A stretch of 64,000 nt of DNA from Sulfurimonas sp. (GCF_026196735.1 NZ_JAPHUF010000012.1:186001-250000), one strand, 5' to 3'. Shown: positions 1-51,481, counted from the stretch's first letter. The notes: generated by a model from the sequence alone, not told the origin. Numbers and translations are program-made.

Positions 1-531
1 ATTGCTTCAAAAAAGCTTCTGTATAGTGTAGGTAAAAGAGGTGTAGAAGATGCGGAGTTTAACTACCCTACAAATGTTGCAGTAGATCAAAGAAACGGAA
101 ATATTGTAATTGTTGATACGCAAAACTTTCGAGTGCAGATTTTTGATAAAGATGGAAAATTTATAAGAAAGTTTGGAAATGTAGGTAACAAACCCGGAAC
201 CTTTGCTAGACCAAAAGGTGTCGGTATCGACAGTGATGGTAATATTTATGTAGCTGACAGTGCATTTAATAATGTTCAGATATTTAATGAAAATGGAACT
301 GCACTACTTATGTTTTTTGGCGGTGGAGGTTATGGTCCAACTCAGTTTCGCTTAATTACGGGAATATATATAGATGAGAATGACAAGATGATAATTGCTG
401 ATGGCTTTAGCGGAAGAGTACAAACCTTTCAATACATTAGTGATAAATGGATAAAAAACAACCCTCAAAAGTATAATGAAATAACCGCTCCACCAGAGAC
501 AAAAGCGGATAATAAAATAGAAAAAAAATAA
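1..531 (+). CDS. NHL-repeat beta-propeller protein (5' truncated)
   Basis: The reading frame is open from base 1, so the N-terminus lies outside the window. The visible part holds at least three NHL-type blades of the form 'P-x-G-V-x-I-D-x-x-G-N-I-Y-V-A-D', followed by a short charged Lys-rich tail. It is clearly related to the complete NHL protein at 3760-4770; both share a blade with 'FNN-(I/V)-QIFN'. NHL propellers usually serve as protein- or ligand-binding scaffolds. The partner is unknown, but the setting beside an isomerase, an outer-membrane barrel and a multiheme cytochrome suggests an envelope role in that assembly. The PpiC gene starts 11 bp after its stop, so the two are probably co-transcribed. 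An export signal cannot be checked because the start is missing. Confidence 0.85.
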   Translation: MASKKLLYSVGKRGVEDAEFNYPTNVAVDQRNGNIVIVDTQNFRVQIFDKDGKFIRKFGNVGNKPGTFARPKGVGIDSDGNIYVADSAFNNVQIFNENGTALLMFFGGGGYGPTQFRLITGIYIDENDKMIIADGFSGRVQTFQYISDKWIKNNPQKYNEITAPPETKADNKIEKK

Positions 532-541
532 GGTGTAAGTT

Positions 542-1474
542 TTGAATAAAATATTTTTAATAGCTGTTTTGGGTATATTTTTATACGCAGATAAGGTACT
601 TTTACCCGAGTCAACGGTCGCAGTTGTCAACGGCACTGCTATTTCAATAGATGAGAGAGACAAAGAGGTTGGAAAGCTGCTTCCAAAAGCATATTTTCAC
701 TCAACCGTAAATGATAAAAAACTTAAAGATTTACAAGAAAAAGCACTGGAATCACTGATTGAAAAAACACTGTTTTATTCATATGCAATTTCAAAAAACA
801 TAACAACAAGCGAGAGTGAAATAGATGATGTTATGACGAAACTAGCAGTAACCTACGGCTCTAAGAAAAACTTAGAAAATGCAATAAAGAAACTTGGATT
901 TACAAAAGAGACTTTTAGAGAGGTTGTTAAAAAAGATGAGACTCTAAAGAAACTTTACAAAAAAGAGATAAAGTATGATATTAGTGAAGATGAGTTAAAA
1001 GATTATTATGAAAAAAATATGTACAAGTTTAAAGAGCCTGAAAAAATAAGAGTTAGACTGATACATGTTAGAAATAATCCTGAGGATCCAGAAGGTAAAA
1101 GTAAAGCCAAAAAAAGAATTGATGAAGCGATGGCTGAGATAAAAAAAGGAACTCCCTTTGGAGATGTAGCGGCAAAATACTCTACCGCTATGAGCCGAAT
1201 TAAAGGCGGAGATATGGGATTTCTTCACAGAGGAAGATTAGATATGGCGGTTGAAGAGGTTGCTTTTGCTATGGAAATTGGGCAAGTAAGTGAGATAATT
1301 GAACAAGACATAGGCTATTTTATAGTAAAAGTAGAAAATAAAAAGAAGCAAAATCAGTTATCTTTTGAAAAGGTCAAAAAAGGGCTAAAAAGAGATTTGA
1401 AAAATAAAGAAGAAGATAAACGAAAAGCTGCACTGCTTGAAAAGTTAATGGCAACTGCGGTGATTATAAAGTAA
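542..1474 (+). CDS. Parvulin-type peptidyl-prolyl cis-trans isomerase (PpiC/SurA-like)
   Basis: The 310-residue product begins at a TTG codon and has a hydrophobic N-terminal export segment (residues about 3-16). An alpha-helical, SurA_N-like chaperone region covers about 25-160. A parvulin domain covers about 168-265, with the hallmark 'GGDMGFLHRGRLD' stretch near residue 220 and 'IGYFIVKVE' at its end. Proteins of this build assist folding of periplasmic and outer-membrane proteins. Its place between an NHL protein and a 755-residue barrel suggests it serves the folding of that barrel or of the cytochromes; this is inferred. The next gene starts 4 bp after its stop. Family assignment is firm, the client is not known. 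Confidence 0.88.
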   Translation: MNKIFLIAVLGIFLYADKVLLPESTVAVVNGTAISIDERDKEVGKLLPKAYFHSTVNDKKLKDLQEKALESLIEKTLFYSYAISKNITTSESEIDDVMTKLAVTYGSKKNLENAIKKLGFTKETFREVVKKDETLKKLYKKEIKYDISEDELKDYYEKNMYKFKEPEKIRVRLIHVRNNPEDPEGKSKAKKRIDEAMAEIKKGTPFGDVAAKYSTAMSRIKGGDMGFLHRGRLDMAVEEVAFAMEIGQVSEIIEQDIGYFIVKVENKKKQNQLSFEKVKKGLKRDLKNKEEDKRKAALLEKLMATAVIIK

Positions 1475-1478
1475 AAAA

Positions 1479-3746
1479 TTGAAAATAAAAATTGTAACAA
1501 TTGCTATACTTAGCAGTATCCTTTCATGGAGTGCTATAAAATTTGTTACTACTTCTGATGAGCCCGGTATAAGCAGGACTAAAGTTTTAAGCAATATAGA
1601 TACACTAAAAAGCAGTGTATCAACAAAAGAAAATGTAGAATATATCTTTAAAGATGAAAATTTGTCAAACGAAATAGATATTGGCAAAATTGAGACAAGT
1701 TTTGGTGCAGAGAGTGTTGATAGTGTTGAGTCGAACAACAATATAAAAAAACTTGATGTAGCTATAAACAATACTGAAGCTTCACCGATACTCAAGGCTT
1801 TAGCAAGCCTGCCCAATGATGCACCGCCCAATACAAGCAATGCTGTTATTTTGGCTTCAAGCCAAACTCCTTTGTATGCAGACTCTCCTCCTGTAGGTAG
1901 AGATATACTTCCTGCGACTTATTCTGCTGGTGATAATAATCAAGAAAATTCTAAAGATAGTGTCTTGGACTCAATTGTTCAGGGAGTCTCATCGGTGGCT
2001 AACTTTGTAAGTTCTGGCATGGGAATTAAATCAAGGTATCCAGATAAGGGCTTTTATGGAAGTTTAAATTTTTTATATGTCCAAGATGATTATACAAATA
2101 GTACAAGAAAAAATTCAAAAGAGAACTTTACACAGGAGTATAAACTCGGCTACAAGGGTAATATCTACAGCCCGCGTTTGCTTGAATATACGCTAGAGGG
2201 TCTGTTTAGGTTTGACACAGAGGAGCTTAAAACAAACGAAGATACATCCAAACAGAAAACTACCGGTAAAGACTATAAAGTTTATCTCAATTTTATTAAA
2301 GAAACAAAAACTCCTTTTACTATATATGCTAACAAAACACAAAGACCGGTAAATACGGTATATAGTGCCTACTCAACAAACTATGAGTATGAAACAAGCG
2401 GTGAAGGGATAACCGGTTCTTTAAATTTTGAGCCGTTTATGGTTACCTATGGAGCTACAACAACAAAAACAGTTGCGGAGTTTAGTGATAGAATGCAAGA
2501 CTCTCAAACTACAACATACAATAGTTCATTTCGTTATAGTGAAAAAAAACATAATGTACAAGCAAATTATTCACACTCTGTATTGGAAAATGAACAAAAC
2601 TATCTTAATGGCGAAATTATAAGTGTTAATCAAGTAAAAGATAGATTTGCAATATCTCATGACTGGAAAGCTATTGAAGATTTAAGTGTTGTCTCTACCG
2701 CATCATATGAAAATGATGATTTTTATCTAAGAGAGACTATTGATGCCGGAGTAAATCTAAGCTACAGACCAAAAGATGCCGACTACAACACTTATTTGTC
2801 GTTTTTAGCAACAACAATGGAGTATGGAGATTCGACAGGAGATGAAAAAAGTGTTTTTGATTCATTAAATATTAATCAAGGCTTTACCTATAAGCTGACT
2901 CCGAGTATTACTTTAACAGAGTCTGCTATGGCGTACATATATGATACCACGACCTCAAAAGGTAGCAATACATATATTAACCTAGACGCTAGACATAATT
3001 ATGAAACTACAATATTTTCGGATGTTCCTTTTACTCTTGTAAGTAGTGTGGGTGTTCAAAGAAACGATTCTGTAATAAAAACTATCTTAGATGCAAACTC
3101 AACAACAACTAAAACAAGCACGGATAGATATAACCTTAACCTTACCGCGAGAGGGAGAAAAAGTTTCCCTTCTATTAACTCAAATCTAAATGTGGATGGT
3201 AGTTACTATCACTATTTGTACTCTACAAAAAGAGAAGAGCAGAGATATAACTTCGGGTTTTATTTTATATCAAAGATTTTTAATATTGTAAATAATAATA
3301 TCACAGCAAGATATAGCCAAACAGATATTCTCTCAGAGCCGACATTATCAATGCCCGCAGAAAGAAGCAGCAACTCAAAGACAAGTATAACGGATACTAT
3401 AGATTTTCATTACAGACTCGGTGTAAGAGGACGAATTGGATTTAAAATCGGAGCAGAGTATATAAATACAAAAACCGATAGCGCAACGGATAGTAATGTT
3501 AATCCAAGAGCAGAGATGAATATGAACTATAGATTTTTCAGCAGATGGATGTTTGACGCTTCTGCAAGAGTGAGTGAGGCATACAACACTCTTGAGCATT
3601 CAGGAAGTGCAAATTTGACATTTAGAGCAGGAAAAACCTCTTTTTTAATGGGATATCAGTATAATAAGAGTGAGATAGAGAGTGTTTTAAATACAATACG
3701 AAATGATCGTTCAATTTTTAAAATACAATTAACGCGAACATTCTAA
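1479..3746 (+). CDS. Large outer-membrane beta-barrel protein
   Basis: The 755-residue product starts at TTG. It has a hydrophobic signal segment at about residues 4-20, a low-complexity Ser/Asn-rich linker to about 190, then about 560 residues of alternating polar/hydrophobic, aromatic-rich strands. The C-terminus is 'FKIQLTRTF', ending in the Phe typical of proteins inserted by the BAM machinery. I do not recognise a named family. Size and strand pattern would allow a barrel of more than 20 strands, as in the porins of porin-cytochrome conduits. The neighbours (PpiC isomerase, NHL propellers, 692-residue multiheme cytochrome) fit such a conduit. No heme motif lies in this protein itself. 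Function is inferred from context only. Confidence 0.75.
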   Translation: MKIKIVTIAILSSILSWSAIKFVTTSDEPGISRTKVLSNIDTLKSSVSTKENVEYIFKDENLSNEIDIGKIETSFGAESVDSVESNNNIKKLDVAINNTEASPILKALASLPNDAPPNTSNAVILASSQTPLYADSPPVGRDILPATYSAGDNNQENSKDSVLDSIVQGVSSVANFVSSGMGIKSRYPDKGFYGSLNFLYVQDDYTNSTRKNSKENFTQEYKLGYKGNIYSPRLLEYTLEGLFRFDTEELKTNEDTSKQKTTGKDYKVYLNFIKETKTPFTIYANKTQRPVNTVYSAYSTNYEYETSGEGITGSLNFEPFMVTYGATTTKTVAEFSDRMQDSQTTTYNSSFRYSEKKHNVQANYSHSVLENEQNYLNGEIISVNQVKDRFAISHDWKAIEDLSVVSTASYENDDFYLRETIDAGVNLSYRPKDADYNTYLSFLATTMEYGDSTGDEKSVFDSLNINQGFTYKLTPSITLTESAMAYIYDTTTSKGSNTYINLDARHNYETTIFSDVPFTLVSSVGVQRNDSVIKTILDANSTTTKTSTDRYNLNLTARGRKSFPSINSNLNVDGSYYHYLYSTKREEQRYNFGFYFISKIFNIVNNNITARYSQTDILSEPTLSMPAERSSNSKTSITDTIDFHYRLGVRGRIGFKIGAEYINTKTDSATDSNVNPRAEMNMNYRFFSRWMFDASARVSEAYNTLEHSGSANLTFRAGKTSFLMGYQYNKSEIESVLNTIRNDRSIFKIQLTRTF

Positions 3747-3759
3747 AGGGAGGAGAGAG

Positions 3760-4770
3760 ATGAAAAAGTTTTTATATGTGCTTGTTTTTATAGTGGGCGT
3801 CGATGCTTTTCATGCTGCACAAAAAGCAAAATTGGTATGGCCACCACCACCTGATGAAGCTAAGATAGAGTATGTATCTTCTGTTCATAACTCTAATGAT
3901 TTAGGGATAAAAAAAAGTTTTTTCTCAAAAGCTTTTGATTTTCTCTTTGGAGAAGAGGAGAGAAGTCTTCGAGCTCCCTTTGGTGTTCATGCTCATGATG
4001 AGAGAGTTTATACTACTGATATATCTACAAAATCACTCTATATATTTGATAAAAAAGAAAACGAGATGATTACGATTAGAGGTTCTGAAAAAGAGCAGTT
4101 TTTATATCCCATTGATGTTACGGCTGACGAAGATGAAAATATTTATATCTCAGACTCTGTAAGAGCAAAAATATATGTTTTTGAAGAAGATGGAGATTAC
4201 CTACGCACTATAGCACCAAAAATGATGCAAAGACCTGTTGGAATTGCAATAAGTCCAGATAAAAAACTCTATATCGTAGATGCACTTTTAAGCCAGATAC
4301 ATGTAACATCTCTAAAGGGTGACTATTTAGGCTCTATCGGTAAAAAAGGCTTAGGTGACGGAGAGTTTAACAGACCTACTTTTATGGATATCGGGGATGA
4401 TGGAAAGCTTTATGTGTCAGACTCTATGAATCATCGTGTGCAGATACTTAGCAGTGACGGAAGCTTTATAGACAAATTTGGTAAGCTAGGACAAGAGATA
4501 GGGAGTTTCGGAAGCCCTAGAGGTATCTCGATAGATTCTCACAACAACATCTATGTAAGTGATACGATGTTTAACAACATACAGATATTTAATCAAAATA
4601 AAGAGTTATTGATGGTGCTTGGTCATTATGGAAACAAAAGAGGAGAGTTTGCCCTAGCAGAAGATATCTCAATAACAAAAGACAATATGATATATGTTAC
4701 GGATACTAATAATAACCGTATTCAAGTCTTTAAGCTTATTAACTCAGCACAGACAAGGAGTTCAAAATGA
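3760..4770 (+). CDS. Six-bladed NHL beta-propeller protein, exported
   Basis: The 336-residue product starts at ATG behind a strong ribosome-binding site (GGGAGGAGAGAG). Residues 1-19 form a signal peptide. A short 'LVWPPPPDEAKIEYV' segment follows, then six NHL blades from about residue 70 to 330, each with a 'D-x-x-x-x-(I/L)-Y-(I/V)-(S/T)-D' core. It is a paralogue of the partial gene at 1-531. The first codon of the following multiheme cytochrome overlaps its stop (ATGA), which implies translational coupling and perhaps a stoichiometric complex. NHL-repeat proteins recur next to multiheme cytochromes in metal-reducing bacteria, but their biochemical role there is unknown. Confidence 0.87.
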   Translation: MKKFLYVLVFIVGVDAFHAAQKAKLVWPPPPDEAKIEYVSSVHNSNDLGIKKSFFSKAFDFLFGEEERSLRAPFGVHAHDERVYTTDISTKSLYIFDKKENEMITIRGSEKEQFLYPIDVTADEDENIYISDSVRAKIYVFEEDGDYLRTIAPKMMQRPVGIAISPDKKLYIVDALLSQIHVTSLKGDYLGSIGKKGLGDGEFNRPTFMDIGDDGKLYVSDSMNHRVQILSSDGSFIDKFGKLGQEIGSFGSPRGISIDSHNNIYVSDTMFNNIQIFNQNKELLMVLGHYGNKRGEFALAEDISITKDNMIYVTDTNNNRIQVFKLINSAQTRSSK

Positions 4771-6845
4771 AATCTTTAATACTTACTTTATCAGTTTTTT
4801 TGTTTTTTTCAACTATTGAGTTGACAGCTTCGATAGTCAATACAAAACATAACCTCTCAGTAACAAGTACGGCAGGAACCATAAAAGCTACAAGCGAGAC
4901 AGAAGTTTGCGTTTTTTGTCACATACCGCACTTCTCACAGTCTGTTGGAAAGCCGCTTTGGAACAGAAGTATGCCCACAACAGAGTATGTTATGTATGAT
5001 AGTGATTATTTAAGACGAATGGGTTATCCTGCTATTGCCTCCGATCTTGGTTCGGCAAATGATACCCCCGGTGCACTCTCTCGTCAATGTCTTAGTTGTC
5101 ATGATGGAACGATTGCCGTAGGTGCAGTCTCTAAGCTTAGACGAGATTATGACGGCTCTTCAACCATAGATATGAGCGGCGATGCTCCCGATGGCACTAT
5201 TCCCGATACTGCAACTGGATTTATTGGAGCAGACCTCTCAAATCACCATCCGGTAGGAATTATTTATGATCCGACAGTAAGTAAAACATTCGGTAATGGC
5301 GGAATTCGTGGTATGGAGTTAAAAGCTGTGCCGGATAGTTCTGTAAAACTTTATGAGTATGCGGGATATAGTGGAAAATATGTAGAGTGTTCATCATGTC
5401 ATGATCCGCATAAAGATAATAGTAAGTTTTTACATGTAGATTCTGGAGCAAATCATGCGCAAAACTTTGTAAATACATGTACAGCATGTCATGAAAAAAC
5501 AAATTGGGTAGGAAGTGTACATCAAAGTCCTCCGGGTAGTCCAACATATACCGATGCAGATCTTATTGCAAAGTATGGAACAGGTGCCGTAGGAGAGCTT
5601 GGATGTGTAAATTGTCATGTACCTCACAATGGAGAGGGTGTTGGATACCTAAACAGACAAGTTAACGAGCAGACATGTTTTCAAGGAGCAGCTTCTACTG
5701 AGGGTGGTGCTGCTTGTCACGGTGTAGGCGGAGCAAAAGATATAAAAACTATTTTAAGCAGAACATATACACACCCTGTTTTAGCAGAGGACAATCTTCC
5801 CGGAACTCAGCATACAAATCTAGATACGCTTTATGGAACCGGTGTAGTCGGTGATCCTGCCGGCATAAACAAGGGCATGTCTTGGACTGATAATAAGCAT
5901 GCCGTTTGTATGGATTGTCACAATCCGCATCAAGCACAAGCCGGTACACATATAGTTGATGGTTCATGGTATGGTCAGCCTGGAGGATCTACAAATCTTG
6001 TCTCTAATGTACTTAAAGGAGTCTCAGGAGTTGAGCCGACATGGCCTGCAGAGTGGACACAGCCTGATACATTTACAACAATGGAGTCTTCGGAGAAAGA
6101 GTACCAAATCTGCTTTAAGTGTCACTCATATTGGGGGATGGGTCTTGTAGCTGATAAATATGCTCCTTCAACTTATACTTCAGCAGGCGGTACTTTACTT
6201 ACAGATGTGGCGTGGGAGATGAATATAAACAATAAATCGGGACATCCTGTTGTCATAAATCAGACTGCTCGTTCAGGCTCATACGCTCCAAAAGAGTTGC
6301 ACTCAAGTCAGTTATTGACCCCTTGGACAGAAAATCCGGGACTCAATAGTATGTACTGCTCGGATTGTCACGGAGCGGATAATGAGCTTGGTGGTGACCC
6401 AAAAGGACCACATGGCTCAAACCTAAAGTATATTTTAAAAGGAGTAAATCATCAGTGGCCGCATAAGTCAGACAATGTAACGCTTTATACAATGGATGAT
6501 ATTGGAACAGCGGGAGATAGTGACCTATTTTGCAAAAACTGTCATGATGTAGCTCATCCTCACGATAAGTGGAGAAATCAAATGGCTAATAAAGGTTATG
6601 CCTGTGTAGAGTGCCATGTTGTAGTTCCTCACGGCTCACCTGTCTCAAGATTGATGGGATATTACACATTTCCTGAGCCATATAACTACAACGGAAATAT
6701 GCTTAAAATGACAGGATGGAAGAAAAAAGCGTATGATCCAAATGATGTAGGTACTAGGACAAATGCATACTCTCCGGGCTGTGGCGGCGGTGGTATGTGT
6801 CATAATTCAAATGCCGGCGGTTATGACCTTAATGTGATGCCGTAG
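4767..6845 (+). CDS. Multiheme cytochrome c, 10 CXXCH plus two atypical heme motifs
   Basis: The 692-residue product has a signal peptide (about residues 1-21) and ten standard CXXCH sites whose first Cys are at 48, 108, 208, 238, 280, 381, 449, 531, 589 and 613. Two widely spaced variants are also visible: CX12CH starting at Cys304 and CX5CH starting at Cys672. Several sites have the 'CXXCHxPH' form of the doubled-CXXCH cytochrome family. The N-terminal third matches the layout of the separate tetraheme protein at 50720-51412. A role in periplasmic or cell-surface electron transfer is expected. The gene is embedded between an NHL protein and CcsBA, so it was probably acquired and is expressed with its maturation machinery. 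Whether the atypical sites bind heme is unknown. Confidence 0.9.
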   Translation: MKSLILTLSVFLFFSTIELTASIVNTKHNLSVTSTAGTIKATSETEVCVFCHIPHFSQSVGKPLWNRSMPTTEYVMYDSDYLRRMGYPAIASDLGSANDTPGALSRQCLSCHDGTIAVGAVSKLRRDYDGSSTIDMSGDAPDGTIPDTATGFIGADLSNHHPVGIIYDPTVSKTFGNGGIRGMELKAVPDSSVKLYEYAGYSGKYVECSSCHDPHKDNSKFLHVDSGANHAQNFVNTCTACHEKTNWVGSVHQSPPGSPTYTDADLIAKYGTGAVGELGCVNCHVPHNGEGVGYLNRQVNEQTCFQGAASTEGGAACHGVGGAKDIKTILSRTYTHPVLAEDNLPGTQHTNLDTLYGTGVVGDPAGINKGMSWTDNKHAVCMDCHNPHQAQAGTHIVDGSWYGQPGGSTNLVSNVLKGVSGVEPTWPAEWTQPDTFTTMESSEKEYQICFKCHSYWGMGLVADKYAPSTYTSAGGTLLTDVAWEMNINNKSGHPVVINQTARSGSYAPKELHSSQLLTPWTENPGLNSMYCSDCHGADNELGGDPKGPHGSNLKYILKGVNHQWPHKSDNVTLYTMDDIGTAGDSDLFCKNCHDVAHPHDKWRNQMANKGYACVECHVVVPHGSPVSRLMGYYTFPEPYNYNGNMLKMTGWKKKAYDPNDVGTRTNAYSPGCGGGGMCHNSNAGGYDLNVMP

Positions 6846-6854
6846 GTATAAAGA

Positions 6855-7391
6855 ATGAGACTTTTTTTATTGATATTATTTTTAGTACAGCTTTGTGTAG
6901 CCAGCACAAATGTAAATGATGACAAGCGCATAAAGGATGCGCTGTTAAAATATAACTACGGAATCATAAAGATGACAAAAAGCGGCAATACAAAACTTCT
7001 AAAAAATATGCTTCCTAAAGAGCTTTATTTGAAGTTAATGGTTTGGGCAGACTCTTGGAAATTTAGCAACCTTGCAATGGTGGCTCAAATAAACGATTTA
7101 AGATTCTCTCCGATAGCCTACAGTGAGAACAATGCTACTATAAGAACTATGGAGAACTGGACATTTGGGTATGCAGATTTAGTCAAAAAAGATTATGCGC
7201 TTGAGCCTATGACGATATTTTACAAGATGAAATATACACTTAAAAAACATCACGGTCAGTGGATGATAGTCGCTGTTGAAAACCTTCAAGAAGAAGTTTT
7301 TACAGAACAAAATAATGATAAAGTAGATGTTGAAGTAAAAAAAGATGAACCTAAAGAGAGTGTCGCACAAGAAAAAAAAGAGACACATTAA
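6855..7391 (+). CDS. Exported protein of unknown function
   Basis: This is a 178-residue protein with a clear signal peptide (residues 1-16, 'LFLLILFLVQLCVAS'). A compact alpha/beta segment of about 120 residues ends in 'KKHHGQWMIVAVENL', and the tail (about 145-178) is rich in Lys and Glu. The helix-then-strand pattern with a terminal 'W-x-I' strand is reminiscent of NTF2-like folds, but I cannot assign a family. It starts 9 bp after the multiheme cytochrome stop and precedes CcsBA by 95 bp, so it probably belongs to the same operon and may be an accessory to cytochrome assembly. That role is inferred from position only. Confidence 0.75.
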   Translation: MRLFLLILFLVQLCVASTNVNDDKRIKDALLKYNYGIIKMTKSGNTKLLKNMLPKELYLKLMVWADSWKFSNLAMVAQINDLRFSPIAYSENNATIRTMENWTFGYADLVKKDYALEPMTIFYKMKYTLKKHHGQWMIVAVENLQEEVFTEQNNDKVDVEVKKDEPKESVAQEKKETH

Positions 7392-7448
7392 CCGTTGTGT
7401 AACAACTCTGTGATAGACTTTTTACATCATAAGAGTATTATAAACTAT

Positions 7449-7454
7449 TATAAT
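7449..7454 (+). promoter_or_regulatory. Possible -10 element upstream of ccsBA
   Basis: The hexamer TATAAT lies 33 bp before the ccsBA start in the 95-bp gap after the 178-residue exported protein gene. No convincing -35 is visible, which is common in Campylobacterota. It suggests ccsBA can be transcribed separately from the upstream conduit genes. Confidence 0.4.
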
Positions 7455-7486
7455 ACGATGTAATATTTAAAATTTTAAGGAAAAGT

Positions 7487-10400
7487 ATGACATATATTAA
7501 AAAAGTGTGGTCATTTTTGATTTCAATGAAATTGATGGCTGTTCTAGTTCTACTATTTGGAGCAGCAAGCGGTATAGGAACATTCATAGAAAATGATTAC
7601 GGCGTAAATACATCTTGGGCTGTTATATATGCAAGTAGATGGTTTGAAGTAATACAGGTGCTACTTGGAATAAGTATCTTGGGAAATATTTTTAAATATA
7701 AAATGATTCAGAAAAAAAAGATTCCAGTTCTTATATTTCACTTGGGGTTTATAGTGATTCTGCTAGGTGCAGGTATAACTCGTTACTGGGGTTATGAAGG
7801 TGTCATGAGTATCCGCGAAGGTACAACTGAGCACCGCATGTTATCGTCTGATGCATTTTTACAGATAGAGGCAAAAAAAGGCTCTAAAGAGTTTGTCAAA
7901 CATAAAGTTGTTTATGTCTCCGAGCTAGGGGGAAGAAACTTTAGCGAGAGTTTAGATATTGATGACAAAGAACTAGAAGTAAGCTATAAAGGATTTATAG
8001 CAAAAGCAGTAAAAACCGTTGTCAAAGATCCAAAGGGAAAACCTATTGCAGGACTTGTGATAATGACACCTCAAGGACCTGAGAAGTATTTTATAAGCAG
8101 TAAAGAGTCGTTTGATGTAGGTCCGCTTGCTGTATTTTTTGATAAAGATGTCACTGTAAATAAACCTGCTATTCGTCTTATGAGTGATGGTGATAAAATA
8201 TCTTTTGTGTCTAATGTTGATATCGGATGGACAAAAATGAGTGATAGGACAGAGGGTGTTTACCAAGCGGGAGTAAAGTATCCGTTTAATGCAGGAGAGC
8301 TCTATAATGTTAGAGGTGTTCAGATGGTCGCAAAAGAGGTTTATGATAGAGGTAGGGTTAAGGTTGTTGATGCAGATGAGTATCATAAAACTGCAAAACA
8401 GGATCTAAATACGGACAAGAACCCTCTCTCTGCTCTTGTGGTAGATGTAACATACAACGGAGAAACACGCGAAGTTGCTATGATGGGAAAAGGTAAGCGA
8501 TATCAAGGCTTTGAAGAGATATTGAAAATGGATGATATAGAGTTAAAACTTGAGTGGGGTGCAAAGATTTTAAAACTTCCGTTTTCTCTTAAGCTAAATG
8601 ATTTTGTAATGCTAAAGTATCCAGGTTCAATGAGTCCATCTTCGTATGAGAGTTATATTACTCTTTTAGATCCTAAAAACAACATTAAAGAGGATCATAA
8701 GATTTTTATGAACAATGTACTTGACTATGGTGGATTTTTATTTTTTCAATCATCTTACGACAAAGATGAGAAGGGAACCGTACTATCTGTAAATCATGAT
8801 CCGGGAAAATGGCCTACTTATTTAGGGTATTTGATGCTTGGAATAGGAATGTTTTTAAACCTTTTAAATCCAAACAGCTATTTTGGAAAACTTGCTCGCA
8901 TAAAATATGAATACAAGGCTTCAGTTGTTGCAGCATTTGTAGTTTTTGCAACATTTTTTGGCACGCAATCGCTTGAGGCATCAGTTACCGATGTTGATCA
9001 TATAAAACATATTGATGCAGGGCATGCAAAACACTACGGAACTCTGCTTGTTCAGAGTCGTGACGGCAGGATTAAGCCTATTGATACAATGAGTATGGAG
9101 TATCTAAACAAAATTACCGGTAAAAGTAGTATGTTTGGACTCAACCATAATCAGATACTTTTAGGGATGGCGTCAAATCCGGATGCTTGGAAAGAGGTGG
9201 AGATGATTAAAATCTTCCACCCTAAATTAAAAAAAGTACTTGGAATAAAAGAGTCAAAAGATAGCTTTGCATATAGTAAAGTTTTTGATAAGTATGGCAA
9301 CTATATTTTAGGACCAATAGCAGAAGAGGCTCTAAGAAAACGCCCGGGAGAGAGAGGTACATACGAAAAAGAGGTTATTAAAGTAGATGAGAGAGTAAAT
9401 GTTGCTTATATGGTGTATTCAGGGCGATTTATGACTATCTTCCCATTAAAAGGAGACCAGAGCAACAAGTGGTACTATCCACAAGAAGCAATGGAAACCT
9501 TTCCTGGTGATATTGCAAATGAAGTTTTAGCTCTTTTAAGAAGCAACTCTTTAGGACTTTCTTATGGGCTGCAAAGTGGCAACTGGAGCGATGCAAACAA
9601 AGCAATAGATGATATAAAAGCATATCAGGCTAAGATAAATCCGGATATAATAGCAGATGATATGCTTATAAAAGCAGAACTGTTATACAATAAACTAAAA
9701 CTCTTTGAGAGACTATATCCTGTTTATCTGTTATCAGGTCTTCTTTTGCTTGTGCTGATTTTTGTACGATTAGCAAAACCTACTTTGGATTTAAAGAGAG
9801 TTGTGCGCGTGATTCTTGTGATTTTTGCAGTTGCATTTGTTGTGCATACATTTAACCTTGGACTTAGATGGTATATTGCAGGACATGCACCGTGGAGTAA
9901 CGGATATGAGGCGATGCTTTATATCTCATGGAGTATAATTTTAGCGGGTATCTTATTTGCACGCTCATCAGAACTTGCAGTTGCAACTACAGGTATCTTT
10001 TCCGGGATAACACTCTTTGTAGCACATTTAAGCTGGCTTGATCCTCAGATTACGACTTTGGCGCCGGTACTTAAATCATACTGGCTGACCATACATGTAT
10101 CTGTCATTACAGCTAGTTATGGGTTCCTTGGGCTTAGTACGCTGCTTGGCTTTATATCGCTGATATTTTATATCATGCTTTCAAAAGAGAGCACAAGAGA
10201 ACAAATCAGCATTAATATTATGGAATCTGCTCGAATAAGTCAAATGTCAATGATTGTAGGACTCTCTCTTCTTACGCTTGGAAACTTTATCGGAGGCGTT
10301 TGGGCAAATGAGTCGTGGGGAAGATACTGGGGATGGGACCCTAAAGAGACATGGACAATAGTTACGATAGCTGTTTATGTTTTTGCAACGCATTTGCGTT

Positions 10401-10645
10401 TCGTTCCAGCTCTTAAGTCAAACTTTTTATATAATGTAGTATCCGTTATAGCGTATGCTTCAGTTATTATGACTTACTTTGGAGTAAATTATTATCTCTC
10501 AGGTATGCACTCTTATGCGTCGGGAGATCCTGTTCCGATACCGGAGTGGATATACTATGTTATTTCTGTAATAGCACTAGTTATTATAGCAGCATCGTTT
10601 AATCGTGATAAGTTGGTAAAAGTAAAACCAATATCCACAAAGTAG
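7487..10645 (+). CDS. ccsBA: Fused cytochrome c synthase CcsBA (ResB-ResC type, system II)
   Basis: The 1052-residue product attaches heme to apocytochromes outside the inner membrane. The N-terminal ResB/CcsB half has membrane segments near residues 10-110, including 'FHLGF' with a conserved membrane His, then a large periplasmic domain and a helix near 440-460. The C-terminal CcsA half has several helices and the Trp-rich heme-handling motif 'WGRYWGWDPKETW' at about 942-955, with flanking His in 'VAHLSW', 'TIHVSV' and 'GMHSYASG'. Fused CcsBA is typical of Campylobacterota. Wolinella encodes several isoenzymes specialised for unusual heme motifs (NrfI, CcsA1), and the atypical CX12CH and CX5CH sites in the upstream cytochrome raise the same possibility here. 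Confidence 0.93.
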   Translation: MTYIKKVWSFLISMKLMAVLVLLFGAASGIGTFIENDYGVNTSWAVIYASRWFEVIQVLLGISILGNIFKYKMIQKKKIPVLIFHLGFIVILLGAGITRYWGYEGVMSIREGTTEHRMLSSDAFLQIEAKKGSKEFVKHKVVYVSELGGRNFSESLDIDDKELEVSYKGFIAKAVKTVVKDPKGKPIAGLVIMTPQGPEKYFISSKESFDVGPLAVFFDKDVTVNKPAIRLMSDGDKISFVSNVDIGWTKMSDRTEGVYQAGVKYPFNAGELYNVRGVQMVAKEVYDRGRVKVVDADEYHKTAKQDLNTDKNPLSALVVDVTYNGETREVAMMGKGKRYQGFEEILKMDDIELKLEWGAKILKLPFSLKLNDFVMLKYPGSMSPSSYESYITLLDPKNNIKEDHKIFMNNVLDYGGFLFFQSSYDKDEKGTVLSVNHDPGKWPTYLGYLMLGIGMFLNLLNPNSYFGKLARIKYEYKASVVAAFVVFATFFGTQSLEASVTDVDHIKHIDAGHAKHYGTLLVQSRDGRIKPIDTMSMEYLNKITGKSSMFGLNHNQILLGMASNPDAWKEVEMIKIFHPKLKKVLGIKESKDSFAYSKVFDKYGNYILGPIAEEALRKRPGERGTYEKEVIKVDERVNVAYMVYSGRFMTIFPLKGDQSNKWYYPQEAMETFPGDIANEVLALLRSNSLGLSYGLQSGNWSDANKAIDDIKAYQAKINPDIIADDMLIKAELLYNKLKLFERLYPVYLLSGLLLLVLIFVRLAKPTLDLKRVVRVILVIFAVAFVVHTFNLGLRWYIAGHAPWSNGYEAMLYISWSIILAGILFARSSELAVATTGIFSGITLFVAHLSWLDPQITTLAPVLKSYWLTIHVSVITASYGFLGLSTLLGFISLIFYIMLSKESTREQISINIMESARISQMSMIVGLSLLTLGNFIGGVWANESWGRYWGWDPKETWTIVTIAVYVFATHLRFVPALKSNFLYNVVSVIAYASVIMTYFGVNYYLSGMHSYASGDPVPIPEWIYYVISVIALVIIAASFNRDKLVKVKPISTK

Positions 10646-10659
10646 ACATCAGAAAATAG

Positions 10660-13029
10660 ATGCATAAAGAGCAAAGCAGCAAGTTTTTTTTAAAGTGGAT
10701 AGTTTCACTTTTTTTGCTGCTCTCGGGAGCTTCTGCCCTCATCTATCAAGTTCTTTGGGTTCGTCTACTTTCGCTTAGCATAGGCTCTACCTCTGTTTCC
10801 ATAAGTATAGTTTTAGCAGTTTTTTTTCTTGGATTGGGACTTGGTAGTTACTATGCCGGTGCGCTTATTGATAGATTTAAAAATGCACTTAAGATATACA
10901 TTGTAGCGGAGACAATAATCGCACTAAGTGCGCTCGTTTTACTTCCTACGCTTTTAAATCTAGATTATTTTATATCATTTGTGCCAATTGTTGAGACCGG
11001 AATATGGCTGAAATTTTTTATTGTGACTCTCCTGCTTTTCATTCCGACATTTTTTATCGGTACGACATTTCCTCTGCTAATGGCTGTTGCAATTAGGCAC
11101 AAAAGTGAGTTAAGAGAAAGACTTGCACACTTTTATGCATTTAATAGTGTGGGTGCTGTTGCCGGAGTTTTATGCTCCGGTGTTTATCTTATTCCTTATT
11201 TTGGTCTTGACGGTACGATGTATATTGCTGTTTTTATCAATATTTTGATAGCCTTAATCGGGATTTTGTTTTATAATCGAATCAGTACATTTGATAGTGC
11301 AAACACTCTTTCTTTAGAAACTAAACAAGATAGAGTCAAACCAAACAACAAAGCTCTTGTCGTACTTTTTGTGACAGGCTTGGCCGCTATTGCAACAGAA
11401 GTCGGCTGGATGAAATTTTTGATTATATATACCGGAAGTACAATATATGGCTTTTCTTTTATTTTGGCTATGTTTTTAACCGGCTTAAGCATAGGTTCAT
11501 TTGTTGCCAAATTGCCCATTTTTTCAAAGATAAATACACAAAAGACAATCTTTTTTGGTTTAATTTTACTTGCTCTTTCTCTTATCGGTGCTCGTATGGG
11601 TTTAGGAGTTTTTCCGGAGTTTTATGAGCAGTTAAACAGTTTTGATGTTAGCCCGTTTATATATAGATGGAGTAAATATCTTGCAATGTTTTTAATTTTA
11701 CTGCCGCCAACGGTAATCTTTGGCGCGCTTTTTCCCATAACTCTTAAATACTATACAAATGATACAAACAGAGCTTACGATTATGTGGGTAGAGCTTATG
11801 CGCTTAATATAGCCGCAGGAGTAATTGGCTCGGTTATAGCCGGATTTTGGATTATTCCGCACTATTCAACTGATTTTTTGTTGACGGCTATTGCTATATT
11901 TGTTCTATTGTCATCTCTTGTTTTTATAAAAAGCATAAAAATCAAAAGAGCTGTCTTGGTGTGGAGCGGGTTTGGCTCGTTTATTTTATTTTTAAGTTTT
12001 TATGGCGTACATGTAGATTACCGTAAGATGATTAAAATTGTTATAGAACGAAATAATAAATATGTTCCTCAAAATGCTAAATTAAATATTCAGTATTTAA
12101 AAGAGGGGCAAACAGGAATAATAGGGCTGCATAGTTATGAAAATACTCCATGTATAGTAAAGCTATCAAACAACGGCATGAATGAGTCATGGATTGATAC
12201 ATGTAATCCTAACAATATGGTTTTGAGCGAATTTTTATTGGCACAGATAGCATTGATGTTAAATCCAAATGCAAATGATGCTTTTGTTTTAGGTTATGGA
12301 GGTGCAACTACTGTTAGAGCTATGGGCATGAGTGAATTAAGAAGCATTGATGTGGTAGAGCTTGACGAAGCAGTGATAGAAGCCGTAAAAACTCTCTATA
12401 GCGGTAGATTGCCGACAGATAGTGACAGCAGAGTCAACATAAAGATAAATGATGCGCGAAATAGTTTGCTTATCTCTAATAAAGTCTATGATATTATTGT
12501 ATCACAGCCTTCTCATCCTTGGCTTATGGGAGCATCAAATATAATGAACAAGGATTTTTTTGAGATAGCAAAATCAAGACTTTCAAAAGGAGGAGTCAAC
12601 GGACAATGGGTGCCGTTGTTCAAGATAGACATAGCAACTCTAAAAGGTATCATCAAGGCTTATACAAGTACATTTGAGCATGTGGTTAGTTTTGTAAATG
12701 TCTCAACAAGAGATTTTTTAATGTTTGGCTCAAATGAGCCGATAGTTATTAGTTATGAAGCGGTAAAAAAACAGATGCAAAACCCTATGACAAGAGCAGT
12801 GTTGCATGAAAATGGCATAAAAGAGCCAGAAGATATTATGGAGTTTTTTGCACTCTCAAGAGAGGAGCTTGTCCTAATTTCGGCTAATGCAGAGACGGCA
12901 ACAGATAAAAATCTACTCACTGAGACATTTTTATCTAAGTATCAAGAGAGAGAAGATAACAGTTTTGATACACTTGGTTTTTTAAGAAAACATTTTTCGC
13001 ATGATGTGAAGTCTTATCTTAGAAACTAA
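10660..13029 (+). CDS. Membrane-bound spermidine synthase-like protein (MFS-like plus SAM-dependent domain)
   Basis: This 789-residue protein has an N-terminal region of about 430 residues with a dozen or more hydrophobic helices. A soluble Rossmann-type domain of the spermidine synthase family follows. The nucleotide-binding turn 'VLGYGGATTVRAM' and the acidic 'VDVVELDEAVIEAV' strand lie near residues 545-575, and 'NDARNSL' follows at about 605. The aminopropyltransferase 'D-S/T-D-P' active-site segment reads 'SQPSHPW', so classical spermidine synthesis is doubtful. Such fusions occur near cytochrome genes in various bacteria without an established function. The gene starts 15 bp after ccsBA and is probably co-transcribed with it. 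Confidence 0.82.
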   Translation: MHKEQSSKFFLKWIVSLFLLLSGASALIYQVLWVRLLSLSIGSTSVSISIVLAVFFLGLGLGSYYAGALIDRFKNALKIYIVAETIIALSALVLLPTLLNLDYFISFVPIVETGIWLKFFIVTLLLFIPTFFIGTTFPLLMAVAIRHKSELRERLAHFYAFNSVGAVAGVLCSGVYLIPYFGLDGTMYIAVFINILIALIGILFYNRISTFDSANTLSLETKQDRVKPNNKALVVLFVTGLAAIATEVGWMKFLIIYTGSTIYGFSFILAMFLTGLSIGSFVAKLPIFSKINTQKTIFFGLILLALSLIGARMGLGVFPEFYEQLNSFDVSPFIYRWSKYLAMFLILLPPTVIFGALFPITLKYYTNDTNRAYDYVGRAYALNIAAGVIGSVIAGFWIIPHYSTDFLLTAIAIFVLLSSLVFIKSIKIKRAVLVWSGFGSFILFLSFYGVHVDYRKMIKIVIERNNKYVPQNAKLNIQYLKEGQTGIIGLHSYENTPCIVKLSNNGMNESWIDTCNPNNMVLSEFLLAQIALMLNPNANDAFVLGYGGATTVRAMGMSELRSIDVVELDEAVIEAVKTLYSGRLPTDSDSRVNIKINDARNSLLISNKVYDIIVSQPSHPWLMGASNIMNKDFFEIAKSRLSKGGVNGQWVPLFKIDIATLKGIIKAYTSTFEHVVSFVNVSTRDFLMFGSNEPIVISYEAVKKQMQNPMTRAVLHENGIKEPEDIMEFFALSREELVLISANAETATDKNLLTETFLSKYQEREDNSFDTLGFLRKHFSHDVKSYLRN

Positions 13030-16315: not shown

Positions 16316-16948
16316 ATGGAAGAAAAAAAAGAATTAAATACGCCAAAGAAGAAAAAATATTCTCTTGGTATATGGGTTATTGTTGCTATGATTGTAGCTG
16401 GTGTTGTTATAGGTATGGGGACAGGCTTTGTTACAGTTGTTGCTGTTAAACATACATCTGATGTAAATTTTTGTGGCGCGTGCCACTCGATGAAACCAAT
16501 GGCAAAAGCATATCGCAATAGTGTGCATGGCGGTTTTGGGGATAGCGGTATAATGGCTACATGTGCTGATTGTCATCTTCCGCATAAATCTACAGTCGGG
16601 TATATGGTTCAAAAAGTAAAAACCGGTCTGTGGGATGTTTGGGTTGAGACTACTCATGATACTTCAAAAATAGATTGGCATGAAAAGCGTAGAAATCGCC
16701 GTAATTGGGTTTACGACAGCGGATGTCTGCATTGTCATGAAAACTTGTTACTTGGTACTAGACCAAATGAAAAAGCATTTACTGCTCACAAAGCTTACTT
16801 TTCTAAAAAGCTTTTAGTAGAAGTTGAAGGTAAAAAAGAACCTGCTAAATGTGTAGATTGTCACAGAAATGTAGGTCATTATGAATTAGAAAAACATCTC
16901 CCTGACTCACCAGTAGAAGTGTATAACACGCAAAATGATGAGAATTAA
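16316..16948 (+). CDS. NapC/NrfH-type tetraheme quinol dehydrogenase
   Basis: The 210-residue product has one N-terminal membrane anchor (about 17-43) and four CXXCH sites with first Cys at 53, 83, 137 and 179. 'CGACHSMKPM' at the first site is characteristic of NapC/NirT/NrfH proteins, which take electrons from menaquinol and pass them to periplasmic partners. Four multiheme cytochrome genes follow at spacings of 6 bp, 42 bp and two 4-bp overlaps, so these are the likely acceptors. No nrfA, napA or other known terminal reductase is seen, so the final acceptor is unknown. It opens an operon running to about 20978. Confidence 0.9.
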   Translation: MEEKKELNTPKKKKYSLGIWVIVAMIVAGVVIGMGTGFVTVVAVKHTSDVNFCGACHSMKPMAKAYRNSVHGGFGDSGIMATCADCHLPHKSTVGYMVQKVKTGLWDVWVETTHDTSKIDWHEKRRNRRNWVYDSGCLHCHENLLLGTRPNEKAFTAHKAYFSKKLLVEVEGKKEPAKCVDCHRNVGHYELEKHLPDSPVEVYNTQNDEN

Positions 16949-16954
16949 GGAGCT

Positions 16955-17479
16955 ATGATGGAACCGAAATATATTAAACCAGCAATAGCTGGGGGTTTAG
17001 TCGTTATTCTTATTGTCTTTCTTGTTATGGTTGATGCCGGTGAAAAATTTGGCCGCTTGATAAAAGTCGGAGGACAGATTGCGACGGCACTTGCTAATGC
17101 TCCTCACGGGGATCCTCGTTCTCTTGATGAGATGGATAAAGAAAAAATTAAAGCTACAACCGGTAGCTCTAATGTTGTAGATGTTAGTGAGTTGCCAAAA
17201 GCATTTGTTCCAATGAAAAAGTATGGACATCCACCTTTTACTCTTGGTGCTTGTAATGTATGTCATGCATCAAGAACAGATAAACCGGCTGCGATTACTA
17301 CTCGTACCGTAGCCGAGTTATGTTATACATGTCACTATCCTAAAGATGATATTGACAAGCGTATGGCAGCACTGGATTGTAATAAGTGTCACAGTCCTCA
17401 CCATGCGGATAGAAAGAAACTTGTACGAAATAAAGTTACCGAGAGAGATTGTCCGGTAGGTAAATTTCAATCAAATTAA
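16955..17479 (+). CDS. Membrane-anchored triheme cytochrome c, probably truncated
   Basis: The 174-residue product starts at tandem ATGs behind AAGGAG. One N-terminal helix (about 6-28) is followed by 'GRLIKVGGQIATALANAPH', then three CXXCH sites (CNVCH, CYTCH, CNKCH). It aligns with the start of the 505-residue neighbour, which has 'GRFVVVMGNITHALQNAKH' and 'GACQICH...CYSCH...CMDCHDPH'. At the place of that protein's fourth heme site (CMKCH) this one reads 'CPVGKFQSN' and stops. It therefore looks like a shortened paralogue whose fourth site has been lost, though the remaining three are intact and the frame is clean. Confidence 0.82.
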   Translation: MMEPKYIKPAIAGGLVVILIVFLVMVDAGEKFGRLIKVGGQIATALANAPHGDPRSLDEMDKEKIKATTGSSNVVDVSELPKAFVPMKKYGHPPFTLGACNVCHASRTDKPAAITTRTVAELCYTCHYPKDDIDKRMAALDCNKCHSPHHADRKKLVRNKVTERDCPVGKFQSN

Positions 17480-17521
17480 ATGTTATCATTTTAAAAACAT
17501 TTAAATTATAGGAGTGCGTTA

Positions 17522-19039
17522 GTGAAGCAACATATTGGGAAAATAATAGCAATATTCTTTGTATTAATAAGTGTATATTTATTTATTTCATATGATGTTT
17601 CGCAAAAGCTCGGTCGGTTTGTTGTCGTTATGGGTAATATAACTCATGCTCTTCAAAACGCGAAACATGCCTATGAAGAAGAGTTTTTTGAGATTAGTGA
17701 TGATGAGCTAAAAGATATCAACATCACTAAAATGGCCAAAGAATTTAAAAGCCTGATTGATAAGAAAAAAGAGGCTAAAGTTGTTGGTTCAAAAGCCCCA
17801 TCAGAAATTCAAGCTGATGAAATCAGAGAAGAAGAAATTCCTACACACGATAGAACACGAGCAGTAAAAGCAAAAATAGTAAAGCTTGAAGATCTGCCTG
17901 ATAAATTCAAACCGCTTAAACAATTTTTACATGAGCCATTTAAAATGGGAGCATGTCAAATATGTCATACTTCTAAAAATAACAAACCCGGCGAACTTGT
18001 TAAAAAGAATATTACAGATATATGTTATTCGTGTCACAAAACAAGATATACGAAAAAATTTGATCACAAGCCTGTAAAAGACGGTAAATGTATGGATTGT
18101 CACGATCCGCATCAGGCAAATACTAAAAGTCTTTTAAAATCTGATTCTGTAAATAATCTATGTATGAAGTGCCATGATCAAAAAAGCACATTTAAAGCAA
18201 AAGCCAAAAAACAGTTTGTAGATATGAGTTTGGGTGTTAAGCATAAACCTATAGTTGAAAAGAGTTGTTTAGAGTGTCATGATGCGCATACGGCGGATCA
18301 TAAATCACTTCTGAATTTTGATGCTAAAATGGATCTATGTTTAGACTGTCATGATGATGAAAAAGAGGCTGTTACTCATTCTAAGTTTAAACACGGCGGT
18401 GTTAATACGAGTAAAAAACGATGTTTAGAGTGTCATGATCCTCATGCTACTAAATATAAAAAACTGCTTAAAATTGACCCGGTAGCTACATGTTTAAATT
18501 GTCATGATAAAGAAGTCAAATCTGATGAAGATGGCGGAATGCTTATGAATATGAAAAAGCATTTAGAAGAAAATCCAAACTGGCATAAACCAATCAAAGA
18601 TTTCAAAAAAGAGGGTGGCTGTTCTGCATGTCATGCTCCTCACGGTTCAGATAACTTTAGTATTTTGAAGAAATCATTTACTAAAAATTTCTATGCTGAT
18701 TTAGAGAATAAAGACTTTTTCTGTTTTGAGTGTCATACAGAAAAGAAAATTACTAAGCAGTTTATTACTAATTCATCAGAGCATAATATTACCGGCTTTA
18801 GAGATGGCGAAGTTAATCTGCATTATCTACATGTAAATGATAGAAAAGGCAGATCTTGTAAAGCGTGTCATGATGAACATGCGTCCAAGTACAATAATCT
18901 GATTCGTGATTATACAGATTTTAACGGTGTAAGATTTCCACTACGATATATAGAGACAACAGAGGGTGGATCATGTGCTCCAGCTTGTCATAAAAAGTTT
19001 GGATATGACCGCGTCAATCCGGTAGGAATTGGCCAGTGA
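17522..19039 (+). CDS. Membrane-anchored multiheme cytochrome c (11 CXXCH plus CX3CH)
   Basis: The 505-residue product starts at GTG behind AGGAG. An N-terminal helix (about 5-25) anchors it. A charged coiled region to about residue 125 follows. The heme region has eleven CXXCH motifs (CQICH, CYSCH, CMDCH, CMKCH, CLECH, CLDCH, CLECH, CLNCH, CSACH, CFECH, CKACH) and a final CX3CH ('CAPACHKKFG'). Most are of the doubled-CXXCH 'CHDPH' type. It presumably relays electrons from the NapC-type protein along the periplasm. The next gene overlaps its stop by 4 bp. Confidence 0.9.
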   Translation: MKQHIGKIIAIFFVLISVYLFISYDVSQKLGRFVVVMGNITHALQNAKHAYEEEFFEISDDELKDINITKMAKEFKSLIDKKKEAKVVGSKAPSEIQADEIREEEIPTHDRTRAVKAKIVKLEDLPDKFKPLKQFLHEPFKMGACQICHTSKNNKPGELVKKNITDICYSCHKTRYTKKFDHKPVKDGKCMDCHDPHQANTKSLLKSDSVNNLCMKCHDQKSTFKAKAKKQFVDMSLGVKHKPIVEKSCLECHDAHTADHKSLLNFDAKMDLCLDCHDDEKEAVTHSKFKHGGVNTSKKRCLECHDPHATKYKKLLKIDPVATCLNCHDKEVKSDEDGGMLMNMKKHLEENPNWHKPIKDFKKEGGCSACHAPHGSDNFSILKKSFTKNFYADLENKDFFCFECHTEKKITKQFITNSSEHNITGFRDGEVNLHYLHVNDRKGRSCKACHDEHASKYNNLIRDYTDFNGVRFPLRYIETTEGGSCAPACHKKFGYDRVNPVGIGQ

Positions 19040-19971
19040 AGCAAGTAAGCTCGTTTGTAGGGGTATTTATACTCCTGTGTATGAGCTTTGCTAACCTGTT
19101 TGCACAAGGCAAATTCATCGAAATTATCTCTCCTGAAGATAATAAACTGCAAACTGAATTGACAATGAATGTTGTTGTCAGTATTAAAAAGCAGAGTGCA
19201 GATTATATTAAAATAATTACGCCCGTAGAGCAAATAATTATGGATATTAACAGTTCCAAAGCACTACAGTGTAAAAACATTTCATTAAAATTAGGTGAAA
19301 ATACTGTTATAGTCCGTACATATAAAAATAAAGCATTGGTTGAAGAAAAAAGAAGACATATTTATGTCTCATCAGAACTTTATCATCAGTTTAAATACCC
19401 TCCCATAAAGTACAAACAGAGCTACTTTCATAATGATGCCAATGAAAAACTATGCGCTACATGTCATGATATGAGTGTTAATGAGGTTAAAGGTGTAGCA
19501 TTTAAAGATGTTACGAAATCAAATTGTTACCAATGCCATAAAAATGTTACAAAAGGGAAATTTGCTCATGCACCTGCGGTTAATTGGTTATGTACATCTT
19601 GTCATAAAACAAACAATAAAGATAAGACCAAGTATACTACGCCAAAGGTTGTTAATGAATCATGTTTTGAGTGCCATAAAGATAATAAAAAGCTGTGGAG
19701 CAGTGCCAAATACAAACATGAACCTCTAGATGCCGGTAACTGTAGTAAATGCCATAACTCACATGCCTCTCCTTATAGTATGTTTTTGCGTAAACCTGTT
19801 AATGAGATATGTGTGGGATGCCATGCGGATAAACATATTCAAGCAAGAGAGAGTAAAAACTCAAAATGTGGATATAATGACACTAAGTTGTGTACAAGTT
19901 GTCACACACCGCATGCATCAAATAAGCCATTTTTTGTAAAAAATGCATCAGAAAAAAAGGAGAAAAAGTGA
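19036..19971 (+). CDS. Exported heptaheme cytochrome c with N-terminal Ig-like domain
   Basis: The 311-residue product starts at a GTG overlapping the previous stop. After a signal peptide (about 1-23) comes an all-beta domain of about 90 residues ('FIEIISPEDNKLQTELTMNV...LGENTVIVRTY'), resembling Ig-like/carbohydrate-active accessory folds. Seven CXXCH sites follow (CATCH, CYQCH, CTSCH, CFECH, CSKCH, CVGCH, CTSCH). The protein is a tandem paralogue of the next one; they share 'CHDMSVNEVKGVAFKDVT' exactly. The combination of a beta domain and doubled-CXXCH hemes suggests docking to a surface or partner plus electron transfer. No membrane anchor is seen apart from the signal peptide. Confidence 0.88.
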   Translation: MKQVSSFVGVFILLCMSFANLFAQGKFIEIISPEDNKLQTELTMNVVVSIKKQSADYIKIITPVEQIIMDINSSKALQCKNISLKLGENTVIVRTYKNKALVEEKRRHIYVSSELYHQFKYPPIKYKQSYFHNDANEKLCATCHDMSVNEVKGVAFKDVTKSNCYQCHKNVTKGKFAHAPAVNWLCTSCHKTNNKDKTKYTTPKVVNESCFECHKDNKKLWSSAKYKHEPLDAGNCSKCHNSHASPYSMFLRKPVNEICVGCHADKHIQARESKNSKCGYNDTKLCTSCHTPHASNKPFFVKNASEKKEKK

Positions 19972-51412: not shown

Positions 51413-51481
51413 GGTTTGCACCTTAAAGTAAGTTATCATAATAATAGCATAATATTTTAATTTTTAACAGTAAAAAATATC

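Follow-up and report, generated by a model that had tools for sequence, protein, structure and literature searches.

The stretch of DNA analysed here (hereafter the window, 64,000 nucleotides) comprises bases 186001-250000 of a 555-kb contig in the 2.19-Mb genome of a sulfur-oxidising Sulfurimonas sp., and it opens inside an operon for multiheme cytochromes, NHL-repeat proteins and a predicted outer-membrane barrel that resembles the Uet (undecaheme electron transfer) pathway. This operon begins 4.3 kb upstream of the window edge, its upstream genes being read from a 20-kb segment around the window start (L003), and runs in the order monoheme cytochrome c, 11-heme, 8-heme and tetraheme cytochromes, NHL lipoprotein, PpiC, barrel, NHL protein, 10-CXXCH cytochrome, 178-amino-acid (aa) protein and CcsBA. 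The four cytochrome genes that precede the window encode the monoheme protein (124 aa) and proteins of 412, 342 and 250 aa with 11, 8 and 4 CXXCH motifs; with the large cytochrome of the window included, the operon holds 34 CXXCH. Successive genes in the window are separated by 10, 4, 13, -4, 9 and 95 bp. A first-pass annotation of the window had described seven genes on one strand; all seven are real, lie on the + strand at the positions below, and their order recurs in relatives.

1..531, + strand: C-terminal part of NHL propeller 1 (UetH/I-like); the full gene (367 aa, L003:15428-16531) begins 573 bp before the window
542..1474, + strand: PpiC/SurA-like peptidyl-prolyl isomerase (UetB-like); Pfam Rotamase, E 3e-20, and SurA_N_3, E 7e-10; position conserved
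1479..3746, + strand: predicted large outer-membrane beta-barrel (UetC-like), 755 aa; AlphaFold2 model and relatives
3760..4770, + strand: NHL propeller 2 (UetH/I-like), exported; domain match and relatives
4767..6845, + strand: UetJ-like multiheme cytochrome, 692 aa; 10 CXXCH, one CX12CH and one CX5CH
4845..5495, + strand: OmcE-nanowire-fold domain of the UetJ-like protein, residues 27-243; match to 7tfs and structural superposition
5676..5720, + strand: sixth heme site CFQGAASTEGGAACH (CX12CH), residues 304-318 of the UetJ-like protein; Cys/Cys/His conservation
6780..6803, + strand: possible twelfth heme site CGGGGMCH (CX5CH), near the UetJ-like C-terminus; motif alignment
6855..7391, + strand: 178-aa exported protein, conserved; recurs in relatives
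7487..10645, + strand: second, cluster-specific CcsBA (system II heme lyase); Cytochrom_C_asm, E 4e-35, and ResB, E 1e-18

In most relatives the first NHL propeller carries a lipoprotein-type signal. The 178-aa protein gave no confident family assignment and at most a weak NTF2-like or ARC6-IMS-like signal.

The Uet pathway, described in cathode-oxidising Tenderiales (Ca. Tenderia electrophaga) and iron-oxidising Gallionella, consists of an undecaheme UetJ, an extracellular tetraheme UetA, triheme UetDEG, an isomerase UetB, NHL proteins UetHI and a barrel UetC (PMC10734462); UetJ and its porin are also known from mobilis-type Leptothrix, of which DSM 10617 is a type strain (PMC13386937). The Sulfurimonas operon shares with this pathway the tetraheme protein, the isomerase, the barrel, two NHL proteins and the undecaheme cytochrome in one cluster. 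It differs in having 11- and 8-heme genes in place of triheme UetDEG, a CX12CH motif at heme site 6, a CcsBA of its own, the 178-aa protein and a Campylobacterota host. From its sequences and gene content we identify the cluster as a Campylobacterota variant of the Uet pathway. Among the papers searched, we found none joining undecaheme or Uet systems, or OmcE, with Campylobacterota.

The tetraheme gene upstream of the window gives the first indication of what such a system might build. Its 250-aa product matches the Geobacter OmcE nanowire subunit (7tfs; E 6e-22, ~36% identity) and another multiheme cytochrome of solved structure (9yuq, 16 chains; E 4.5e-19), and in an alignment that included both structures the four CXXCH motifs and four further histidines were invariant in 15/15 sequences. 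Four bis-His hemes need eight ligands. One heme ligand in OmcE is supplied by the next subunit (PMC12307469). As the homology spans the whole subunit and all of these motifs and histidines are conserved, the protein qualifies by sequence as an OmcE homologue, with the same four hemes and eight histidines as the nanowire, and its polymerisation into a filament is inferred from this homology. The Sulfurimonas system departs from the OmcE nanowire in that its filament is predicted from genes and in that an OmcE domain is also fused to a 7-8-heme extension. The equivalence of UetA and OmcE that this homology shows may already be in print.

The tetraheme gene is usually flanked by the widest gaps of the operon in Campylobacterota clusters, and folding placed a hairpin 3' of it in most of 14 genomes; a stricter terminator search missed most of these hairpins. 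Their sequences differ, a T-run is present in some, and z lies between -2 and -10 in most genomes (G042 has none and that of G051 is weak by z). The hairpin and the gaps together fit attenuation or a stabilised 3' end, with higher expression of this one gene, and suggest an excess of the tetraheme product, in line with a filament subunit. Additional OmcE-like genes occur in the same genome, including a lone tetraheme gene (239 aa) at window positions 50720-51439 on the - strand, with relatives at G109:C1:1366930 and G032:C1:2458162, and two others at C4:33275 (5 CXXCH) and C13:216871.

The same fold recurs at the start of the large UetJ-like cytochrome. Residues 6-226 match OmcE 7tfs with E 1.4e-23, and in an AlphaFold2 model built from 52 sequences (mean predicted local distance difference test score, pLDDT, 75; predicted template-modelling score, pTM, 0.78) residues 27-243 superpose on OmcE with Z 12.9 in VIA and a root-mean-square deviation of 2.6 A, covering 184 of 202 residues at 35% identity over the aligned part. 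Foldseek matched the model to OmcE (E 5.8e-9) and returned no second significant match, and the domain retains the full set of eight histidines conserved in the OmcE family. The C-terminal part of the model gave no more than a weak match to OcwA (Z 2.6). The sequence and the model thus describe the protein as a predicted OmcE-fold subunit with a long 7-8-heme extension.

Relatives of UetJ in other phyla mostly contain 11 CXXCH. The window protein has 10, and its CX12CH aligns with the sixth CXXCH of these relatives, which makes it an undecaheme cytochrome on this alignment; the 11-CXXCH cytochrome encoded by S. (L.) mobilis DSM 10617 (locus L105) is a match with E 8e-52. A C-terminal CX3CH, conserved in most relatives from outside the Campylobacterota, is likely a twelfth heme site judging by its motif, and in Campylobacterota this site varies from CX1CH to CX5CH, its second cysteine missing in L055 and L057. 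Second copies of the gene were also observed. UetJ is duplicated in G042, where the MFS-spermidine-synthase gene and the second NHL gene lie between the copies (L051:2156-10463, - strand), and a second UetJ is present in G063 (L054). Another second UetJ-type gene (L194:9594-14408, - strand; G432:C41), with 11 CXXCH and a CX12CH, has PpiC alongside but lacks the usual order of the other cluster genes.

The 755-residue protein had been proposed as a barrel, and its AlphaFold2 model bore this out with ~28 predicted strands over residues 191-754, most residues at pLDDT >=90. A C-terminal phenylalanine is found in 11/12 aligned members of the family. Between the signal peptide and the barrel lies a disordered, low-confidence extension of ~170 residues (residues 15-184, window 1521-2030); L052 and L054 have extensions too, which the other nine barrels lack. 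The protein matched no Pfam or NCBIfam family, its profile matched none of the solved chains, and a scan of genome contigs by the barrel alone gave no matches, the family being too divergent for short exact peptides. By structure, Foldseek ranked MtrB (6r2q_B) first of 368 barrel-type matches with E 1e-11, yet at a template-modelling (TM) score of 0.31, and VIA alignments gave generic barrel matches with Z 13-17 over parts of the model. Hidden Markov model searches for the classic MtrB/OmbB family gave no match, and that assignment was not adopted. A classic MtrB/OmbB porin-cytochrome pair as the core of the locus is not supported, given the OmcE-type tetraheme gene, the OmcE-fold domain of the large cytochrome and a gene set that matches Uet.

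The sixth heme site of UetJ separates the Campylobacterota from the other carriers compared. In the window protein CFQGAASTEGGAACH occupies the position of the sixth CXXCH of other phyla, and Cys304, Cys317 and His318 are invariant across the 52 sequences. The Campylobacterota sequences, which form one clade (n = 18, support 1.0), have CX12CH in 17/18 cases and CX13CH in 1/18; those of other phyla have CX2CH in 44/47, with CX4CH, CX4CH and CX7CH in the remaining three. The source genome has two CcsBA copies, 42% identical to each other, and a single CcsBA was found in 4/4 cluster-free relatives checked. Cluster-type CcsBA sequences fall into one clade (16/16, support 1.0), as do the housekeeping sequences (n = 14, support 1.0), so that the cluster's own CcsBA, already proposed in the first-pass annotation, is indeed a second and distinct paralogue adjoining a cytochrome with an unusual motif, as expected of a dedicated lyase. 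Dedicated lyases are known in Wolinella, for CXXCK (NrfI) and CX15CH (CcsA1), and in Shewanella, where SirE acts on a similar site (PMC6976685, PMC10663686). Like the Sulfurimonas cluster, the Wolinella CcsA1/MccA (CX15CH) and NrfI/NrfA (CXXCK) and the Shewanella SirE/SirA pairs link an extra heme lyase gene to an unusual-motif cytochrome; in Sulfurimonas the motif sits in a putative conduit cytochrome, whereas theirs sit in reductases.

Given the separate clade, the Campylobacterota CX12-13CH motif and these precedents, a dedicated lyase for the CX12CH site is the natural reading of the cluster CcsBA, its specificity being inferred. A lyase that instead serves the overall heme load, with no specificity for CX12CH, would be in keeping with the large demand of 34 CXXCH in the operon and with the CcsBA that lies beside a UetJ having only CX2CH in L078; the clean split of the sixth-site motif by phylum, the separate clade and the Wolinella and Shewanella cases point the other way, and we regard this alternative as the less probable one.

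The cluster is rare and patchy in Campylobacteria: matches to the UetJ family occur in 12/397 genomes and 6/68 genera, in agreement with the earlier proposal of a surface or trans-outer-membrane redox complex unusual for Campylobacterota. Of 119 near relatives, 12 encode the barrel and 15 a member of the tetraheme family, and these 15 include all 12 barrel genomes; the chance probability of this overlap is 5e-14, related genomes not being independent. Gene order is conserved. The succession tetraheme, NHL, PpiC, barrel, NHL, UetJ, 178-aa protein and CcsBA is kept within the genus as well as in families f4 and f18, with a further tetraheme gene preceding PpiC in some clusters, and family f7 shows the same order to the contig end. 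Recurrence in several families of the order puts this arrangement far beyond chance. A scan for the OmcE family returned 402 relatives; of the best 79 loci, which come from many phyla, 68 include an NHL gene, and a UetJ-like gene is present in 56. Many of the UetJ-bearing loci in this set have an open reading frame of ~560-740 aa immediately ahead of the second NHL gene, and a number of these are related to the Campylobacterota barrel profile, as position-equivalent barrels.

A candidate inner-membrane end lies on the + strand (window 16316-20978), in a second cytochrome operon whose 11-, 7- and 8-heme products are paralogues of the 11- and 8-heme proteins upstream of the window:

16316..16948, + strand: NapC/NirT/NrfH-like tetraheme quinol dehydrogenase; candidate inner-membrane end
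16955..20978, + strand: 3-heme, 11-heme (membrane-anchored), 7-heme and 8-heme cytochromes; candidate periplasmic relay

A NapC gene is near the cluster or its CcsBA in four other genomes (G021, G042, G030 and G109), and in L196 and L198 relatives of the 7- and 11-heme genes adjoin the cluster in inverted orientation. The NapC operon would plausibly provide a path from quinol to the surface, one that is not in all cluster genomes. The opposite direction, with electrons gained from minerals, electrodes or partner cells and not discharged to MnO2 or Fe(III), has been proposed for Tenderia and iron oxidisers and would be consistent with the organisms in which Uet was described, namely cathode-oxidising Tenderiales, iron-oxidising Gallionella (PMC10734462) and Leptothrix (PMC13386937). 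The NapC-type quinol dehydrogenase linked to the cluster, and the respiration of MnO2 with sulfide by one Sulfurimonas, argue for discharge, and we hold uptake to be the less probable direction.

We consider it fairly probable that the cluster is a Campylobacterota Uet variant in which the Uet pathway serves as a conduit that exports and anchors cytochrome nanowires of the OmcE type, with the cluster CcsBA serving CX12CH. This model builds on the computed homology, folds, gene order, CX12CH split, CcsBA clade and hairpin after the tetraheme gene, and proposes from them polymerisation, a base or cap role for UetJ, an occupant for the barrel, the specificity of CcsBA and the direction of electron flow. 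Electrons from quinol would pass through the NapC-like protein to the periplasmic 11- and 8-heme cytochromes and cross the outer membrane at the ~28-strand barrel, filled by a multiheme protein that could be the heme-rich C-terminal part of UetJ, the MtrA-like 11-heme protein, or both. They would exit via the OmcE domain of UetJ into a filament built of tetraheme subunits; this OmcE-fold domain, in the first third of UetJ, may template or cap the filament's growth. The PpiC/SurA-like UetB would act as chaperone for the barrel, both NHL proteins (one of them a lipoprotein) would dock or scaffold the assembly, and the extra CcsBA would attach heme to the CX12CH site of UetJ. More tentatively, the barrel, NHL proteins and UetJ could be a dedicated machine for OmcE-nanowire export, nucleation and anchoring in many phyla, with UetJ as a subunit-fused templating base, and in Campylobacterota a base with a CX12CH heme from its own CcsBA.

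Several observations weigh against this model. The chief caution on a dedicated lyase is that CcsBA adjoins the CX2CH-only UetJ of L078, a Cyclobacteriaceae contig, and some UetJ genes with CX4CH or CX7CH (L101, L099) have no CcsBA nearby. The barrel model is a single chain from 12 sequences, and its likeness to MtrB in size is loose (TM 0.31). A NapC gene was not found in cluster genomes G002, G032, G051 and G063, and was found weakly in G054. Finally, the triheme UetDEG genes are absent from the core cluster, which is therefore filed as a Uet variant and not as a strict member.

MtrCAB (6r2q) is the other known system with which the cluster can be compared, as both have a very large barrel with MtrA-like, paired-CXXCH cytochromes nearby; the 11-heme protein matches part of MtrA 6r2q_A with E 3.5e-13, but falls below the DmsE-family NCBIfam cut-off, and the 8-heme protein matches it with E 8e-10. 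The cluster differs from MtrCAB in its NHL and PpiC genes, in lacking MtrC, and in a barrel family with no sequence match to MtrB. A plain Mtr-type porin-cytochrome conduit, with the MtrA-like 11-heme protein in the barrel, UetJ as an MtrC-like outer terminus and the tetraheme protein as a non-polymerising soluble or surface-bound carrier, would draw on these MtrA matches and on the first rank of MtrB in Foldseek, but is unlikely given the OmcE homology of both the tetraheme gene and the UetJ domain, the lack of an MtrC-like protein, and the hairpin and gaps that suggest a subunit in excess. The locus is best read as a nanowire export and anchoring conduit in preference to an MtrCAB-like one. 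Of the electron conduit first proposed, the surface redox character is retained and the type revised, since the OmcE-type tetraheme gene lies outside the window and the 692-aa cytochrome begins with an OmcE fold.

This kind of system is known. Worth pursuing are its branch in Campylobacterota, the CX12CH site together with the putative lyase for it, and the presence of an OmcE fold within UetJ; the Campylobacterota CX12-13CH heme site and the separate clade of cluster CcsBA appear to be new. Little is understood of how cytochrome nanowires traverse the outer membrane and are attached to it, and a nanowire subunit fused to a 7-8-heme region beside a very large barrel would open this question to direct tests in a group that can be cultivated and has small genomes. 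If correct, the pairing of the CX12CH site with a CcsBA of its own would add a new example to the dedicated heme lyases, and the cluster would be a concrete candidate system by which Sulfurimonas exchanges electrons with solid minerals or with partner cells. A study of Sulfurimonas from 2024 found porin-cytochrome sets to be incomplete and suspected an undetected porin (PMC11748539).

Two further genes were observed in the vicinity, the first of which follows CcsBA by 14 bp, its membership of the cluster being uncertain:

10660..13029, + strand: MFS-spermidine-synthase-like fusion

This fusion of an MFS-type membrane domain to a spermidine-synthase-like domain also lies beside the cluster in G021, G042 and G051. 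A few kb past the NapC operon, a diguanylate cyclase of the dCache_3-GGDEF type is encoded on the + strand (window 24697-26484).

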